Part shown: positions 8,915 to 30,265 of the stretch, piece after piece
How positions within the stretch are numbered: position 1 is the first letter of the stretch
Layout of the letters: each line of letters starts with the position of its first letter
NCBI RefSeq assembly: GCF_021631985.1
Contig: NZ_CP070225.1
Location: forward strand, 7,502,001 to 7,566,000
DNA from: Sandaracinus amylolyticus
GTDB lineage: Bacteria > Myxococcota_A > Polyangia > Polyangiales > Sandaracinaceae
Direction: 5' to 3'
Length of the DNA stretch: 64,000 bases
Made by a program: the position numbers and the translations under genes
The notes under the pieces: generated by a model
What the model was told of the DNA's origin: nothing
Database searches by the model: none
What the model saw: the letters and a program-made list of their open reading frames with translations, nothing else

Positions 8915-8933
8915 GCAGGTGTCCAAATCGGCT

Positions 8934-9010
8934 CGCCCGCTCCGGGCCCTCCTGTCCGCGTGCTCCGCACGCTTCCGTGCGGGCCCTGCGCAGGCGAGCA
9001 CTCCAGCTGG
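8934..9010 (-). repeat. Dispersed 87-bp palindromic repeat, single copy in inverse orientation
   Basis: Read on the minus strand, this segment matches the repeat unit of the 26993-27330 array: GGAGTGCTCGC, then GCAGGGCCCG, a GCGTGC-GGA-GCACGC hairpin, GGAGGGCCC and GGCGAGCCGATTT at the far end. The outer stem is less perfect than in the array (three mismatches). It starts 20 bp after the lipoprotein stop codon and ends 38 bp before the DUF2267-like gene. Confidence 0.8.
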
Positions 9011-9048: not shown

Positions 9049-9651
9049 GTGGACGACACGAGCTTTCGCGAGCTCGCGCGAGAGCGCCTCGGCCCGCTCG
9101 GGCCCGAGGAGAGCGATCGCGCGATCGACGTCACGCTGCGCGTGCTCGCGGAGGCGTGCTCGCGCTGCCTCGCCGATCACATCGCGGAGGCCCTCCCGCC
9201 GGGCGCCGCGAAGATCATGCGCGAGGTGATCGGCCACGAGCTCGGCGGCGACGCGAGCGCGATCGTCGCGCGCACCGCACGTCGCGAGGGTGTTCGCACC
9301 GCGCTCGGGGTCGAGCACCTCGGCGCGATCGCGTCGGTGATCGGTGAGCACCTCGACGACGAGACGATGCGCCTCGCCGAAGCCGAGCTCGACCCGAGCG
9401 TGGTCCGGCTGCTGCAGCCGCGACGCTTCGCGCCTCCGACCATCGCGCACCACGACGCGCACCCGAGGACGACGCTCTCCGAAGGACACCCCGGCGGCAC
9501 CGACCAACTCGCGCAGGCCCACCACTCGAGCGCGCACGTCGACTCGGTCTCCGGCGTCGCGCACGAGGACGAGCGACTCTCGACCGCGCACGGCACGCGC
9601 CAGGAACAGCAGCACGAGACGCTCGCGGAGGGTCGCTCCAAGCGCTCATGA
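9049..9651 (+). CDS. DUF2267-like protein
   Basis: A 200-residue protein whose N-terminal ~130 residues (FRELARERLGPLGPEESDRAIDVTLRVLAE...IAEALPPGAAKIM) resemble DUF2267 helical proteins of unknown function, which are often found near stress genes. The rest is a hydrophilic, His/Glu/Gln-rich tail (about residues 135-200) that looks disordered. The frame is open far upstream, but the upstream portion is the palindromic repeat. The GTG at 9049 (VDDTSFREL) is the first start after it; the ribosome site is weak. The gene converges on the alkyltransferase-like gene, and the big palindrome at 9664-9843 fills the gap between them. The family assignment is tentative. Confidence 0.6.
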   Translation: MDDTSFRELARERLGPLGPEESDRAIDVTLRVLAEACSRCLADHIAEALPPGAAKIMREVIGHELGGDASAIVARTARREGVRTALGVEHLGAIASVIGEHLDDETMRLAEAELDPSVVRLLQPRRFAPPTIAHHDAHPRTTLSEGHPGGTDQLAQAHHSSAHVDSVSGVAHEDERLSTAHGTRQEQQHETLAEGRSKRS

Positions 9652-9663
9652 GACGAGCGGGGC

Positions 9664-9843
9664 AGAATTTCTGAGGAGAGCAGGAGGGTTAGGAAGACCA
9701 CGGCGCCGAGCCCGTGGCGCGACTCGACTTCGCGCGCAGCGCACGACCGAACGATCGCGTTCGGGACCTTCGTCGCGCGGCGAGTCGACAGGAAGACCCC
9801 GCGACGTGGTCTTCCTTCTCCTCCTGCTCTCCTTAGAAATTCT
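9664..9843. repeat. 180-bp nested palindromic element between convergent genes
   Basis: The segment 9664-9701 (AGAATTTCTGAGGAGAGCAG...) is repeated in inverse orientation at 9806-9843 with about 34 of 38 positions identical. Inside, CGACTCG at 9720-9726 pairs with CGAGTCG at 9781-9787 about exactly the same centre (9753.5), and a CCGAACG-ATCG-CGTTCGG hairpin (9747-9764) sits at the middle. Local hairpins (CCACGG/CCGTGG at 9698-9717, GGAAGACC/GGTCTTCC at 9791-9815) compete with the long fold. It lies between the stops at 9651 and 9848. A bidirectional terminator or a MITE-like non-autonomous element would both fit; there is no gene in it. Confidence 0.75.
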
Positions 9844-9847
9844 CCCC

Positions 9848-10180
9848 TCAGCGCCGCGCAGACGGATCCCACCCGTGTCGCTCGAGATCGACGCGCCCCT
9901 CCTCGTCGAACGACACGCCTTCCGACTCGAGCATCTCGCGCTGCAGCCCCGGATGCTCGCGCTCGGTCGAGATGCGTCCCTTCGCGCCGACCACGCGCTG
10001 CCACGGGATCGAGCCCTCGGCCGCAGCACGGATCGCCCAGCCCACGCCGACCGGCGTGAGCCGTCCGTCGATCATCCGCGAGAGCTGGCCATAGGTCGCG
10101 ACGCGCCCTCGCGGGATGCGCTTCACCAGCGCCTGCACCCGCTCGAAGGGCGGAGTCTCCTCAGCGCGATGCTTCGCCAT
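9848..10180 (-). CDS. atl: Alkyltransferase-like protein (MGMT family without the acceptor Cys)
   Basis: A 110-residue protein with the DNA-binding domain of O6-alkylguanine-DNA alkyltransferases: PRGRVATYGQLS, the Arg-finger region VGWAIRAA and the active-site segment IPWQRVVGAKGRIS. Where MGMT has PCHRV with the alkyl-accepting Cys, this protein has PWQRV. Known alkyltransferase-like (ATL) proteins share this Cys-to-Trp change; they bind O6-alkylguanine, flip the base and hand the lesion to nucleotide excision repair rather than repairing it. The length fits ATL rather than full MGMT. The ATG at 10180 lacks a strong ribosome site but precedes the domain directly. It is divergent from a lipoprotein gene. 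Confidence 0.88.
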   Translation of the reverse strand: MAKHRAEETPPFERVQALVKRIPRGRVATYGQLSRMIDGRLTPVGVGWAIRAAAEGSIPWQRVVGAKGRISTEREHPGLQREMLESEGVSFDEEGRVDLERHGWDPSARR

Positions 10181-24910: not shown

Positions 24911-25783
24911 CTAGGGAGAAACCCGGAGCGAAGCTCCGGGCGGCAACACTGACCTGAGCGCGCGCGCCCGGATGAAGAGCGCGTCGCGATCGGTCTGAGG
25001 GATCGGCCAGCGCGCGTCGCCCACGAGGTGACGCGCGCTCGCCAACTTCAGGGCCTCGAAGCGATAGAAGCGATCGAGCGCAGCGAGATCTTCCTGCACC
25101 GAGCTCGCGTCGCGCCGGGCGCGCGGCTTGTCGAGGAGCGCGACCGCGAGCGACGAGAGCGCAGCGCGCGACTCACCGCGCAGAAAAGCGCTCCAGTCGC
25201 CGCGCCACGAGGAGGACAGTCGGCGGACTTCGAACGTCCAGGTGCGCACGCCCGCAGCCCGTCGTGGCGTCTTCTCGCGATGACCGATCAGCGAGAGCAA
25301 TCGCATCAACGAGAAGAACGCACCGCCGGTGATGTCGCGAGAGCGATAGGCACCGTGCCAGTCGAGCTCGGGGCGCTCTCCCGGTGTCGTCGAGAATGCG
25401 AACAGCGCATGTCTCGGCTCGGTCGTGCCGAGACCGATCGACGGATAGAGGAACGAGAACGCGCCGACCACGTTCCACTTCGGCGTGAGCGCCTGGATGA
25501 GCGCGGCCTCGCGCAGCTCCGCCTCGAGCTCGGTCTCGCACGCCTCGAATTCGACGCGGGCCGCGCTCTCGACGATCGCGCGCATCTTGCGGTGCCTCTT
25601 GCGGCGCGTCGCGTTGCGATACTGCGAGAGGCGGCGTCGCAGGTTGATCGCCTTGCCGACGTAGACGACCGCGCCCGCGGCGTCGAGCACTCGATAGACG
25701 CCCGGCGAGCGCGGCACCGTCGCGAGGAAGTCGTCGCCGAGCCGTCGATCGAACGCGCGCGTCACCGCGACTCCATACCGCAT
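24911..25783 (-). CDS. GIY-YIG nuclease-domain protein (UvrC N-terminus-like)
   Basis: A 290-residue protein. Residues ~25-110 form a GIY-YIG nuclease domain: PGVYRVLDAAGAVVYVGKAINLRRRLSQY has the G(V)Y and Y(V)G core, the following Arg, and the catalytic Glu can be sought in ACETELEAELRE. This is the arrangement in UvrC and Cho. The remaining ~180 residues match no domain I know and lack the UvrC C-terminal nuclease, so a stand-alone Cho-like endonuclease or an exonuclease accessory protein is possible. The ATG at 25783 is preferred over the longest frame (25846), which would overlap the divergent acetyltransferase start. It converges on the peroxidase gene. Confidence 0.78.
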   Translation of the reverse strand: MRYGVAVTRAFDRRLGDDFLATVPRSPGVYRVLDAAGAVVYVGKAINLRRRLSQYRNATRRKRHRKMRAIVESAARVEFEACETELEAELREAALIQALTPKWNVVGAFSFLYPSIGLGTTEPRHALFAFSTTPGERPELDWHGAYRSRDITGGAFFSLMRLLSLIGHREKTPRRAAGVRTWTFEVRRLSSSWRGDWSAFLRGESRAALSSLAVALLDKPRARRDASSVQEDLAALDRFYRFEALKLASARHLVGDARWPIPQTDRDALFIRARALRSVLPPGASLRVSP

Positions 25784-25818
25784 TGCGCACCTCGCGCGCG
25801 ACGGGCACGGTGCTCGCC

Positions 25819-26988
25819 ATGAGCGATCGCATCGTGAGGGCCCCACGCGACGAGCACGAGCGCGCGACGCTCGAGCGCGTCCTCCAGGAGAGCTTCGGCA
25901 ACGACGGGCTGCCCTGGACCTCGTGGATGGAGCGCATCGGGCACGAGAACCTGCGCGTGGTGATCGCGGGCGGCGCGATCCGCGGCGGGCTCGGGTTCTA
26001 TCGCTTCGGTCAGCACTGGGGCGGCGAGCGCGTGCCGATGGTCGGGCTCGCGGGTGTCGGGGTGGAGCCGTCGTGGCGCGGCCGCGGGCTCGCGCGGACG
26101 TTCCTCGTCGACACGCTCGCCCAGGCGCGCGCCGAGGGCGTGCCGCTCGCTGCGCTCTACGCGTCGTCGGTCGCGGTGTATCGCTCGATCGGCTTCGAGC
26201 AGGCCGGCGTCACGCTGCGCCTCGAGGCACCGGTCGCGAGCCTGCCCCGCGGTGATCACGCGCTCGCGTGCGAGGCGTTCGATCCGGCGGAGAGCGCGCA
26301 CGTGCGGCCGCTCTACGATGCGCGCGCGCGCCGCTGGAATGGACACCTGGTGCGGAGCGAGGCGATCTGGGCGCGCATCATGCAGCCCTATCAGAGCACC
26401 GTGCGCGCTTATCGATTCGGCCCTGCGAGCGCGCCCGAGGGATACGTCGTGTACGCGCACCAGCCGAGCGCGGGGCTCGAGTTCGGGATCACGCTGCGCG
26501 ATCTCGTGCTCGCGACGCCGGCCGCCGCGCGACGCTGCGCCGCGCTGCTCTCGGATCTGCGCTCGCTCGGGCGCGAGCTGCGCTGGCTGGGTTGCGCGAG
26601 CGATCCGCTGTTGTCGCTGCTGCCCGAGGAGAGCGCGCGCATCGTCGAGCCGCATCGATGGATGCTGCGCATCCTCGACCCCGAGCGCGCGCTGACGATG
26701 CGCGGATACGCCAGCGACGGTGAGGCGTCGTTCGTCGTGCGTGACGCGCTCTTCGGCGATCGCGCGCTGCGCGTACGGGTGCGCGACGGACGCGCGGAGG
26801 TGGAGATGATCGCGCCCCGGAGCGATCTCCCGGCGCTCGACGTTCGCGCGCTCGCCGCGCTCTACAGCGGGTTCGCGAACGTCTCGACGCTCGTCGCGAT
26901 GGGCCTGATCGAGGGCGCGATCGACGACGTGGTCGCGCTCGCGCGGCTCTTCATCGGCGGTGAGCCCTGGCTCTGCGACTGGTTCTGA
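25819..26988 (+). CDS. Eis-like GNAT acetyltransferase
   Basis: A 389-residue protein with the tripartite architecture of Eis. The N-terminal GNAT contains the acetyl-CoA motif VEPSWRGRGLARTFL (R/Q-x-x-G-x-G/A). A second degenerate GNAT is followed by a C-terminal SCP2-like domain. The Tyr in YASSVAVYRSIGF corresponds to the catalytic Tyr of mycobacterial Eis, and the protein ends in Phe (CDWF), as Eis does, where the C-terminal carboxylate acts as the base. Eis acetylates lysines and aminoglycosides at several amines, but here the substrate is unknown. The ATG at 25819 is supported by the domain start. The palindromic repeat array starts 4 bp after its stop codon. Confidence 0.85.
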   Translation: MSDRIVRAPRDEHERATLERVLQESFGNDGLPWTSWMERIGHENLRVVIAGGAIRGGLGFYRFGQHWGGERVPMVGLAGVGVEPSWRGRGLARTFLVDTLAQARAEGVPLAALYASSVAVYRSIGFEQAGVTLRLEAPVASLPRGDHALACEAFDPAESAHVRPLYDARARRWNGHLVRSEAIWARIMQPYQSTVRAYRFGPASAPEGYVVYAHQPSAGLEFGITLRDLVLATPAAARRCAALLSDLRSLGRELRWLGCASDPLLSLLPEESARIVEPHRWMLRILDPERALTMRGYASDGEASFVVRDALFGDRALRVRVRDGRAEVEMIAPRSDLPALDVRALAALYSGFANVSTLVAMGLIEGAIDDVVALARLFIGGEPWLCDWF

Positions 26989-26992
26989 AGTC

Positions 26993-27330
26993 CAGCAGGA
27001 GTGCTCGCTGGTGCAGGCCCGTACGGGAGCGTGCGGCGCACGCGGCTCTACGCCGGCGAGCCGATTCTTCAGCAGGAGTGCTCGCTGGTGCAGGGCCCGT
27101 ACGGGAGCGTGCGGCGCACGCGGACGGGAGGGCCCTGCGCCGGCGAGCCGATTTTTCAGCAGGGGTGCTCGCTGGTGCAGGGCCCGTACGGGAGCGTGCG
27201 GCGCACGCGGACGGGAGGGCCCTGCGCCGGCGAGCCGATTTTTCAGCAGGAGTGCTCGCTGGTGCAGGGCCCGTACGGGAGCGTGCGCCGCACACGGACG
27301 GGAGGGCCCTGCGCCGGCGAGCCGATCTTC
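26993..27330. repeat. Four tandem copies of an 87-bp palindromic repeat
   Basis: Units start with CAGCAGGAGTGCTCGCTGG at 26993 (77 bp, shortened), 27070, 27157 and 27244 (87 bp each, nearly identical). Each full unit folds on itself. GCTCGCTGGTGCAGGGCCC near the left end pairs with the right part (GGGCCCTGCGCCGGCGAGC) at 19 positions counting two G-U pairs. An internal loop then surrounds a GCGTGC-GGC-GCACGC hairpin. The array fills the space between the convergent stops of the acetyltransferase (26988) and a small membrane protein (27339). There are no spacers, so it is not CRISPR. Frames crossing it are not genes. Confidence 0.9.
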
Positions 27331-27338
27331 GACACCTC

Positions 27339-27554
27339 TCAGTCCAGGTCGCGCGGCGCGTGCGTCTCGCCGGGCTCGCGCACCAGCATCGACTGCACGC
27401 GAACCCGGCCGCTCTCCGGACGTCGCGGCGCCGGCTCTTCGCGGCGCAGGTACCACGAGAGCGCGAGCACGCCGCCTGCCGAGCAGCACGCGACCACGAG
27501 GAAGCCGATCAGGAACGGCAGGAACACTTCGAGAGCGTAGAGCGCTACCGACAC
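27339..27554 (-). CDS. Small single-span membrane protein
   Basis: A 71-residue protein beginning SVALYALEVFLPFLIGFLVV with one strongly hydrophobic segment (~10-32, containing two adjacent Cys), followed by a basic, Arg/Pro/Glu-rich tail. No family is recognised. The GTG at 27554 is chosen because it overlaps the last codons of the upstream lipoprotein gene by 10 bp, which suggests translational coupling; there is no separate ribosome site. Membrane topology would put the tail in the cytoplasm. The palindromic repeat array lies 8 bp beyond its stop. Confidence 0.55.
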   Translation of the reverse strand: MSVALYALEVFLPFLIGFLVVACCSAGGVLALSWYLRREEPAPRRPESGRVRVQSMLVREPGETHAPRDLD

Positions 27555-28370: not shown

Positions 28371-28431
28371 CAGCCGGAGTGCTCGCTGGCCGCGGGCCCG
28401 CACGGGAGCGTGCCGCGCAAGCCGATTCTTC
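28371..28431. repeat. Truncated copy of the 87-bp palindromic repeat
   Basis: CAGCCGGAGTGCTCGCTGGCC, GGGCCCGCACGGGAGCGTGC and GCCGATTCTTC match the array units in order. The right arm (about 25 bp between GCGCA and GCCGATTC) is missing. The copy lies between two minus-strand lipoprotein genes, 43 bp upstream of the 27545-28327 gene. Confidence 0.75.
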
Positions 28432-28441
28432 GACGACTCGC

Positions 28442-30265
28442 TCACCCGAGGTTCGTGAGACAGGCGTTGCTGCAGGTGTCGGTGTCGACGTCGTTGCCGT
28501 CGTCGCACTGCTCGCCGTGCTCGGCCTGGCGCACGCCGTCGCCGCAGCGCTCGGTGAGCTGGCACGCGGGCGAGCATCCGTCGTAGCCGCCGACGTTCGG
28601 CGGATCGTCGCACTGCTCGCCCTCTTCGCTCTGGGTGACGCCATCACCGCAGCGCGGACCGAGCGCCATGCAGCCCGGCGCGCAGCCGCCGTACGAGCCG
28701 TCGTTGACTCCGTCGTCGCACGCCTCGAAGCGGGTGACGATCCCGTCGCCGCAGATCGGCGCGCACTCGGTGCGCGAAGAGGTGAAGTTCGAGAGCGTCA
28801 GTCGATACGACGACTGCGTGGTGTGGCGCTCCGCCTGGAACACCACGACTTCGTAGATGCCGCCGACGGCGAGGCCGAGGTCCGGGGCGCGCGCGCTCAG
28901 CGTCACGGTGCCGCTCAGTGCGCCGTGCACACCGCCGAGATCGAGCGCGAGGCGGCCGTTGATGAACACCCAGACGTCGTCGTCTCCGCGGAACGTGAGG
29001 ACCTCGTCGCCGTGGTACTCGAACCAATAACGAACGACGCTGGTGAACGAGAAGTTGTGGCCTCCGGTCCGCGGCTGCTCCGTCCCAGCCGCGATCCAGC
29101 CTCGACCGTCGAGCGGGAAGAACACGCTGTTGTCGTACACGTAGCGGCCATCGGGCTGGCGCGTCAGCACGAGCCGCTCGACGACCGTTCGGTTCACCCC
29201 GGCGGTGTCGCGGTACCACTGGTCGAACGCGACGCGCCCGTGGGTCGTGGCCGAGCTGACTCCTTCCTTCGCGTAGACCGGGAGTCGATCGGCGCCGAGC
29301 GTCGCCGCGACGATCCCGGTCTCGTTGCCGTTGGCGTTCTCGAAGTCGATGTGACCGCCCGACAGATCGCGACCACGGAAGTCGCGGTACACGACCGCGA
29401 GCGCGAGCTCGTCAGGCGCCTCGATCTCGGTGAGCTCGCAGGTGAAGCCTTCTTCGATGGTGCACGTCGGCGAGCATCCGTCGCCCGCGCGCGTGTTGCC
29501 GTCGTCGCAGGGCTCGCCGGGGAGCACGACTCCGTCGCCGCACGCAGTGGTGCAGACTCCGTCGCTGCACACCGGCTCGACCTCGCACAGCGGACTGCAG
29601 CCATCGCCGGTGTCGTTGTTCCCGTCGTCGCAGGGCTCCGTGCCTTCGACGACGCGGTCGCCACATTGCGTCGGGACACACGGCGCGCCGACGGTCTCGC
29701 ACGCATATCCGTTCTCGAAGAGACAATCGGCGCTGCAGCCGTCGTTGCCTTCGGGCGGCGCGTCGCCGTCCTCGCACTCTTCGAATCCCGCGATGATTCC
29801 GTCGCCGCACGCCGCCGCGCGACACGCGACTCCGTCGATCGGACAGACCCATCCTGCTTCGATGACACAAGCCGCGCTGCAGCCGTCGCCAGCGTCGGTA
29901 TTGCGATCATCGCACTCCTCGCTCGCCGCGCGGACTCCGTCACCGCACGTCGCGAGAGGAACGCAGTCTTCGCCGGGAGTCGGACACGCATATCCGTCTT
30001 CGACGGTGCAAGTCGCGGAACAACCATCCTCGGGATCCACGTCGCCGTCGTCGCACGCCTCGGTCGGCGCATTGATTCCGTCGCCGCAGATCGGACTGCC
30101 GGCATCGGGCCGCGGCGGCGGCGGGGCGTCGATCCCCGGCGACGCGTCGCGCGGCTCCATGCGACCGGCGTCGACGTCGTCGTCGGGTCGTGGGCCGGGA
30201 TCGGGATCGCAGGCGATCGTGAGTGCAGAGAGCGCGAGGACGAAAGCGAAGCGACGGTGCATCAC
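28442..30265 (-). CDS. Secreted lipoprotein with DUF4215 repeats and fibro-slime domain
   Basis: A 607-residue surface protein. The signal MMHRRFAFVLALSALTIACD has lipobox TIAC, and an Asp/Arg/Pro linker follows. Residues ~60-275 hold about five DUF4215 Cys repeats (CGDGINAPTEACDDGDVDPE and similar). Residues ~280-510 match the fibro-slime domain (LAVVYRDFRGRDLSGGHIDFEN...FTSVVRYWFEYHGDEVLTFRGDDDVWVFINGRLALDLGG), known in Fibrobacter and slime-mould adhesion proteins. More DUF4215 repeats close the protein. It probably acts in adhesion or carbohydrate contact outside the cell. The start may be the second ATG at 30262. Its own upstream region before the hybrid kinase gene is only 46 bp. Confidence 0.88.
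   Translation of the reverse strand: MMHRRFAFVLALSALTIACDPDPGPRPDDDVDAGRMEPRDASPGIDAPPPPRPDAGSPICGDGINAPTEACDDGDVDPEDGCSATCTVEDGYACPTPGEDCVPLATCGDGVRAASEECDDRNTDAGDGCSAACVIEAGWVCPIDGVACRAAACGDGIIAGFEECEDGDAPPEGNDGCSADCLFENGYACETVGAPCVPTQCGDRVVEGTEPCDDGNNDTGDGCSPLCEVEPVCSDGVCTTACGDGVVLPGEPCDDGNTRAGDGCSPTCTIEEGFTCELTEIEAPDELALAVVYRDFRGRDLSGGHIDFENANGNETGIVAATLGADRLPVYAKEGVSSATTHGRVAFDQWYRDTAGVNRTVVERLVLTRQPDGRYVYDNSVFFPLDGRGWIAAGTEQPRTGGHNFSFTSVVRYWFEYHGDEVLTFRGDDDVWVFINGRLALDLGGVHGALSGTVTLSARAPDLGLAVGGIYEVVVFQAERHTTQSSYRLTLSNFTSSRTECAPICGDGIVTRFEACDDGVNDGSYGGCAPGCMALGPRCGDGVTQSEEGEQCDDPPNVGGYDGCSPACQLTERCGDGVRQAEHGEQCDDGNDVDTDTCSNACLTNLG

Follow-up and report, generated by a model that had tools for sequence, protein, structure and literature searches.

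The 87-bp repeat analyzed here probably represents (estimated probability about 0.7) a non-autonomous mobile foldback element that targets (C)TGA(G) stop codons and has been amplified locally. A mobile element was judged the best account because the copies sit at a fixed point beside pre-existing stops, carry flanking repeats, occupy a narrow taxonomic range, and show high turnover. The window, that is, the whole stretch of 64,000 nucleotides under analysis, comprises bases 7,502,001–7,566,000 of the 10.75-Mb Sandaracinus chromosome (genome G000), whose second contig is the plasmid pSa001 (209,732 bp; 3 kb identical to NZ_MW053453.1 from Sandaracinus sp.). The nearest complete relative was the sister genome G001 of the same genus (10,327,335 bp), which is collinear with G000 at a DNA identity of approximately 85–95%.

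As summarized in Table 1, the six copies at three loci described in a sequence-only reading of the window (four in tandem, one inverted, and one truncated) were all found at their positions, and the 4- and 8-bp gaps between the array and the two convergent stops were confirmed. AGTC precedes copy 1 of the array, and TCAGTC, which begins with the TCA stop, lies beyond the 8-bp gap. The T-rich end of the inverted element begins a few bases past the TGA of the upstream gene (CGCTGAGCAGGTGTCC), and this copy is 87% complementary to those of the array. Full copies were shown to fold as had been claimed, with a 19-bp stem, an internal loop, and a GCGTGC-GGC-GCACGC tip; the folding energy corresponded to z = -6.0, and none of 200 shuffled sequences was equally stable. 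The fold of the truncated copy was no better than chance (z = +1).

Table 1. Positions in the window of the elements, the inserted segment, and the adjoining stop codons
Feature	Position	Strand	Remarks
Complete insertion: the tandem array with 4 bp before and 8 bp after it	26989..27338	+	Flanks contiguous at G001:339232/339233; junction alignment
Array copy 1, 77 bp, 10-bp internal deletion in 3' arm	26993..27069	+	
Array copy 2, full 87-bp unit, subfamily A	27070..27156	+	
Array copy 3, full 87-bp unit; fold -60.2 kcal/mol	27157..27243	+	
Array copy 4	27244..27330	+	
TGA stop of upstream ORF 25783-26988, already in empty site	26986..26988	+	
TCA (minus-strand TGA), convergent ORF stop, already in empty site	27339..27341	-	
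Single full inverted element; empty site in G001	~8925..9010	-	
Truncated element, 3' arm lost	28371..28431	+	TCAGCC before, TCACCC after; G001 empty site TCAGCC

Other repeats were also noticed in the window. A second dispersed foldback at 9640–9870, with 47-nt arms (9660–9706 and 9801–9847) around 94 nt and a folding energy of -133.7 kcal/mol, has relatives in both Sandaracinus genomes (L123, L139, L144, L187, and L228) and gave no Rfam match. The minus-strand ORF at 28442–30265 encodes a cysteine-rich, apparently secreted protein containing many CGDG...CDDGN...DGCS repeats, which we take to be of the kind annotated as myxococcus cysteine-rich repeats and which are mirrored in the window DNA repeats D1 and D4.

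Copies in G000 were sought by DNA search, with a strict two-ended pattern, and with two covariance models that had been derived from different copies. The chromosome yielded at least 278 distinct copies at approximately 210 loci and the plasmid one more, and the sister genome gave at least 152 matches; the genome-wide search for the 87-bp unit thus ruled against a local duplication only, the outcome by which the sequence-only reading was to be refuted. The strict two-ended exact pattern matched 84 times in G000 versus 1 and 3 times for the reversed pattern. Although many weak palindromes arise in GC-rich DNA, the chance that the repeat is an accidental palindrome or a purely local duplication is practically nil, as both were refuted by the number of dispersed copies, the pattern control, and the covariation described below. 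Among the genomes searched, the element was found only in Sandaracinus: the family was present in none of 142 further genomes sampled from the order, where G023 gave a single weak match (E = 3e-4), and scanning approximately 85,000 species for the pattern detected no multicopy family elsewhere, giving single chance-like matches only. In Rfam, no match to the element reached the gathering threshold, and only noise was obtained at E<1.

The element is approximately 75–100 bp long, encodes nothing, and forms a hairpin of approximately 70 bp, the tip of which is a 6-bp hairpin. Two subfamilies, A and B, share the frame GGAG-TGCTCG ... CGAGCC-GAT(T)TT and differ through the middle stem, namely CTGGCGGAGGGCCC or variants paired with GGGCCCTGCGCCGG in A, and TCCCGCAGGTCCC paired with GGGACCGGCGGG in B. 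An unpaired GGAG directly 5' of the hairpin was nearly invariant in both subfamilies, and the internal loop (5' side, ACGGGAG; 3' side, GACGG(G/T)A) was strongly conserved though mostly unpaired. In alignments made without fitting to the structure, 91–92% of the paired cells in A and B were complementary, versus 20–53% for slid structures. Double changes were observed at seven pairs in A and five in B, as many as were reached by 2 and 0 of 500 shuffles, respectively, the counts in both subfamilies being inflated by relatedness among copies. The middle stem was swapped wholesale between A and B yet stayed paired, which is difficult to account for unless the fold is under selection or is required by some mechanism. 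Some orthologous single copies, such as those at 6,902,327 and 891,716, differed in stem type in a coordinated manner, suggesting that conversion or replacement had occurred. Copies that had decayed by loss of their interior were common, as expected for long palindromes. A different hairpin (GTGCTCGCGAAGCAGCCGGCGGACGGTAGTGCCCG...), which forms a three-copy array with 96-bp spacing at G000:C1:8104797-8105062 and shares the family end motifs, possibly represents a third subfamily.

Placement was assessed in approximately 2.4 Mb of G000 and G001 taken as 20-kb stretches, plus shorter loci, which together held 300 copies in 201 clusters; gene ends were taken from a home-made codon-usage gene caller. 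The copies were located at gene ends, which supported the intergenic placement noted earlier. When 199 loci were viewed in element orientation, the neighboring genes both pointed left at 69, both right at 56, converged at 60, and diverged at 14, against 600, 573, 363, and 354, respectively, of 1890 background pairs; divergent pairs were thus rarer at copies (14/199 versus 354/1890).

The family attaches to stop codons at a fixed distance. In subfamily B, the stop and GGAG were 10 nt apart at 42 loci and 9 nt apart at 15, together accounting for 57 of 82 loci. In subfamily A, the distance from GAGCC to the start of the opposing gene's TCA was 15–17 nt at 41 of 89 loci. The consensus at the stop reads CTGAGccCttgCC-GGAG in B and GGAC(A)CTCnn-TCAG in A. 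The sequence-only reading was right that the array fits with little spare room, but missed that a fixed stop distance holds family-wide. The stops used were 57 TGA and 2 TAG in A, and 66 TGA, 2 TAG, and 2 TAA in B, a TGA share of 123/129 compared with 90% in the background (1496 TGA, 153 TAG, and 19 TAA). A cytosine preceded the stop at 44 of 59 loci in A (background 49%), and a guanine, which may partly be element sequence, followed it at 53 of 70 loci in B (background 39%). Approximately 20–25% of subfamily A loci had no adjacent called stop, and a minority of insertions lay at T-rich sites, e.g., at G001 8,932,992, where the copy immediately follows another hairpin that carries a T-tract.

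For 27 clusters of G000 and several of G001, the two flanking sequences were both located in the other genome, yielding approximately 14 orthologous loci filled in both species and approximately 18 clean empty sites. These proportions are biased by the choice of the G001 stretches, which had been taken from the surroundings of G001 copies. All three window loci, which were chosen independently of G001 copies, corresponded to clean empty sites in G001. At the array locus, G001 reads TTCTGATCAGTC, with the TGA and TCA stops abutting, and G000 reads TTCTGA-[350 bp]-TCAGTC. The four empty sites of subfamily B, one of which has diverged on its right flank, already contained TGA, and most of those of subfamily A already contained TCAG (TTAG in one). 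These observations indicated that the element comes to the stop and does not supply it.

Direct repeats of 4–15 bp, often containing the stop, were recognized around the elements and were absent or unclear at several empty sites. Target repeats at filled sites included GACACGCGATCAG, the 12-bp GATTTTCGCATC, TGAG, CTCAG, and TCAGC; those at sites without an empty counterpart included the 14-bp TTCTGAGCTCTGCC, TTTCACTCCC, CTCAGTCCTTCGG, and TCAGTCGGT, and a 15-bp repeat, GACACGCGATCAGCC, was also recorded. The repeat lengths are partly due to chance likeness between target and element ends; after removal of this likeness, we interpret them as probably lying near 8 bp at many sites, including the clearest cases. 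Among single B loci, 20% shared at least 8 bp between their flanks versus 3% with swapped flanks; in subfamily A, swapped flanks yielded nearly as many long matches. A stop motif was also enriched on the far side of the element, with TCAG near the far end of A at 22 of 47 loci (versus 1 and 0 in neighboring control windows) while the corresponding counts for TGA in B were 19 of 45 loci (versus 5 and 8). A fixed-length target duplication in A was considered and rejected, the two bases before TCA matching between the ends in 11 of 35 cases versus 6.7 expected by chance (p = 0.04), a slight excess only. Since the direct repeats were variable and sometimes missing, standard staggered-cut transposition is a candidate mechanism only. 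Precise losses could mimic some insertions; a shared ancestor followed by more than 200 clean excisions is unlikely.

Arrays of two to five copies accounted for 53 of the 201 clusters, about a fifth to a quarter of loci, and all 53 were head-to-tail in a single orientation, with a spacing of approximately 80–105 bp (50–75 or 140 bp in a few). The sequence between copies was locus-specific and repeated the flank, such as CTCTGTCTGCTC at 918,803 and ATCAGC at 116,940, as expected if the element and its flanking repeat were duplicated in place; the junctions of the window array (GATTTTTCAGCAGG) were shorter than such a duplication predicts. Copy number differed between orthologous arrays, namely one versus three (7,884,660 and 10,302,184), one versus three (116,940 and 7,402,099), and two versus four (2,070,012 and 5,460,892). 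These differences, together with the empty window loci in G001, bore out the recent tandem amplification that had been suggested for the window array. The suggestion of a dispersed REP/MITE-like mobile family was also supported.

The placement behind genes could alternatively mean that the copies are functional terminators or bidirectional insulators which were kept and spread by selection, mobility being incidental. Strong hairpins at gene 3' ends, the scarcity of divergent gene pairs, and the retention of copies at approximately 14 orthologous loci are in agreement with such a role, as is the layout of subfamily B, in which the stop, approximately 10 nt, the hairpin, and GATTTT follow one another as in an intrinsic terminator. 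The window array, judging from its layout, would present the left-hand gene with a series of four hairpins, each trailed by a T-rich tail; however, a simple terminator scan did not flag it. Moreover, the gene adjoining a subfamily A copy meets a hairpin without a T-tract behind it and is mostly presented with an A-tract, and termination therefore cannot be the general reason for placement. Selection for termination also leaves the single-nucleotide stop distance and the far-side stop motif unexplained, and many loci differ between the species. Because the T-tract of A lies on the wrong side for the abutted gene, the choice of insertion site explains the placement better, and we regard selection for terminators as a rather unlikely primary cause.

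Since the element encodes nothing, an enzyme acting in trans is needed. An autonomous parent would show separated left and right halves on either side of an ORF; none was found in approximately 3 Mb examined, and the unpaired halves encountered were mostly internally deleted relics. The nearly invariant unpaired GGAG would suit REPs mobilized by a RAYT (Y1 HUH) transposase, with GGAG replacing GTAG at the 5' foot, and the high copy number and intergenic location near stop codons resemble those of GTAG REPs (PMC3733652). The linked RAYT-type transposase suggested by the sequence-only reading was, however, absent: a search that finds Y1_Tnp (PF01797) in relatives and controls gave no match in either Sandaracinus genome, and the RAYT/Y1 transposase was accordingly rejected as the mobilizer. 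REPs are, in addition, 20–40 bp long versus approximately 75–100 bp here, and IS200/IS605-type insertion proceeds without a larger target duplication (PMC2817692), unlike the repeats described above, all of which makes this route improbable. Similarly low odds are given to retroposition, in which a retron-type or other structured RNA or single-stranded DNA is inserted by a reverse transcriptase. It would accommodate the variable direct repeats and ends, which fit target-primed or template-switch insertion, as well as the three myxobacterial-type retrons kept in both genomes, and a precedent has been proposed for Nannocystis exedens, at least as cited in PMC6868368. Nevertheless, the msr-msd hairpins at these retrons were unlike the element, no element lay inside the reverse transcriptase cassettes, and a retron origin was rejected as no sequence match to the hairpins of these loci was obtained.

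The conserved retron-type reverse transcriptases are L245 (G000:C1:3041235), L247 (G000:C1:149717), and L243 (G000:C1:9528520), with the G001 orthologues L256, L257, and L255, respectively; two of the three belong to the RT_XIII type and have clear msr-msd-like hairpins upstream. L249 (G000:C1:9552134) and L259 (G001:C1:724011) are reverse transcriptases with a likely role in defence, belonging to the UG5-nitrilase and UG22 types. Eight group II intron-like reverse transcriptase elements with approximately 99% identity were found in G001 (L242, L244, L246, L248, L250, L252, L253, and L254), and no full-length counterpart was found in G000. They have a common 3' end, mostly GATCTACCA, directly before ATGA. 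A link to the foldback element was rejected, since only one of the eight lies next to a copy, and the other introns, which stop immediately ahead of ATG codons, do so independently of it.

Under the preferred reading of a mobile element, insertion would occur beside TGA stops, preferably in the (C)TGA(G) context, and a short target stretch, often including the stop itself, would be duplicated so that the gene keeps its stop. Subfamily B would insert with its GGAG (left) end towards the gene and subfamily A with its T-rich right end. The trans-acting enzyme may recognize the folded hairpin, for which the conserved GGAG foot, the invariant stem base, and the conserved ACGGGAG motif of the internal loop are the likely features. 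Arrays would arise after insertion by head-to-tail duplication of the element with its flanking repeat, growing and shrinking through slippage or unequal exchange between the flanking repeats, presumably helped by the hairpin, and the copies may be mainly selfish. As a more specific proposal, put forward tentatively and at somewhat less than even odds, an enzyme of a class other than Y1, either a new transposase or a reverse-transcriptase route, would place the folded element at (C)TGA(G) in one orientation per subfamily, always harmlessly behind genes, and the transcript would thereby acquire a hairpin at its 3' end. If the stop targeting is true, it would amount to a "safe-harbour" strategy by which hundreds of copies are accommodated in a 90% coding genome without gene breakage, and hairpins would be added to gene 3' ends. 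Since two complete genomes of approximately 90% identity are available, together with dozens of sites in the filled or empty state and arrays of changing copy number, the mechanism of an orphan (transposase-less) palindromic element becomes directly testable.

The text of the S. amylolyticus genome paper contains no description of such repeats (PMC5010890), and, mostly outside subscription journals, no earlier description was found of two opposite-orientation, stop-anchored subfamilies combined with frequent head-to-tail arrays. Like classical MITEs (Correia/NEMIS, RUP, and ERIC), the element is small, non-coding, non-autonomous, dispersed, and foldback; unlike them, it lacks terminal inverted repeats, the mostly TA targets, and AT-richness (PMC2229807), and, in contrast to the MITE model, no parental insertion sequence was found in the approximately 3 Mb examined. 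The msDNA-like repeats of N. exedens, as far as the account cited in PMC6868368 goes, are also dispersed hairpins in a retron-bearing myxobacterium, yet they resemble the msDNA of their host, whereas the Sandaracinus element is unlike any msr-msd found there. With GTAG and CGTC REPs the element has in common an unpaired tetranucleotide tag at the hairpin foot, high copy number, and proximity to stop codons. GTAG REPs often supply TAG stops to neighboring genes, and CGTC REPs occur without a dedicated transposase (PMC3733652). The Sandaracinus element differs from REPs in its tag (GGAG, not GTAG), its greater size, the lack of a RAYT gene, its target-duplication-like repeats, and its consistently head-to-tail arrays (53/53) in place of alternating BIMEs. 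YPAL/RU-2 of Yersinia is an intergenic foldback of approximately 168 bp with target duplications of 3–26 bp, the mobilizer of which is unknown (PMC2229807). The Sandaracinus element, likewise an intergenic foldback, shares with it internal inverted repeats, the absence of TA termini, variable target repeats, and empty and filled sites, a likeness of behavior; YPAL targets are described as spanning or adjoining a dyad symmetry, whereas the Sandaracinus target is a stop codon, and the many head-to-tail arrays are unlike YPAL. By this comparison, the family is closest in its behavior to YPAL/RU-2 and to tagged REPs.
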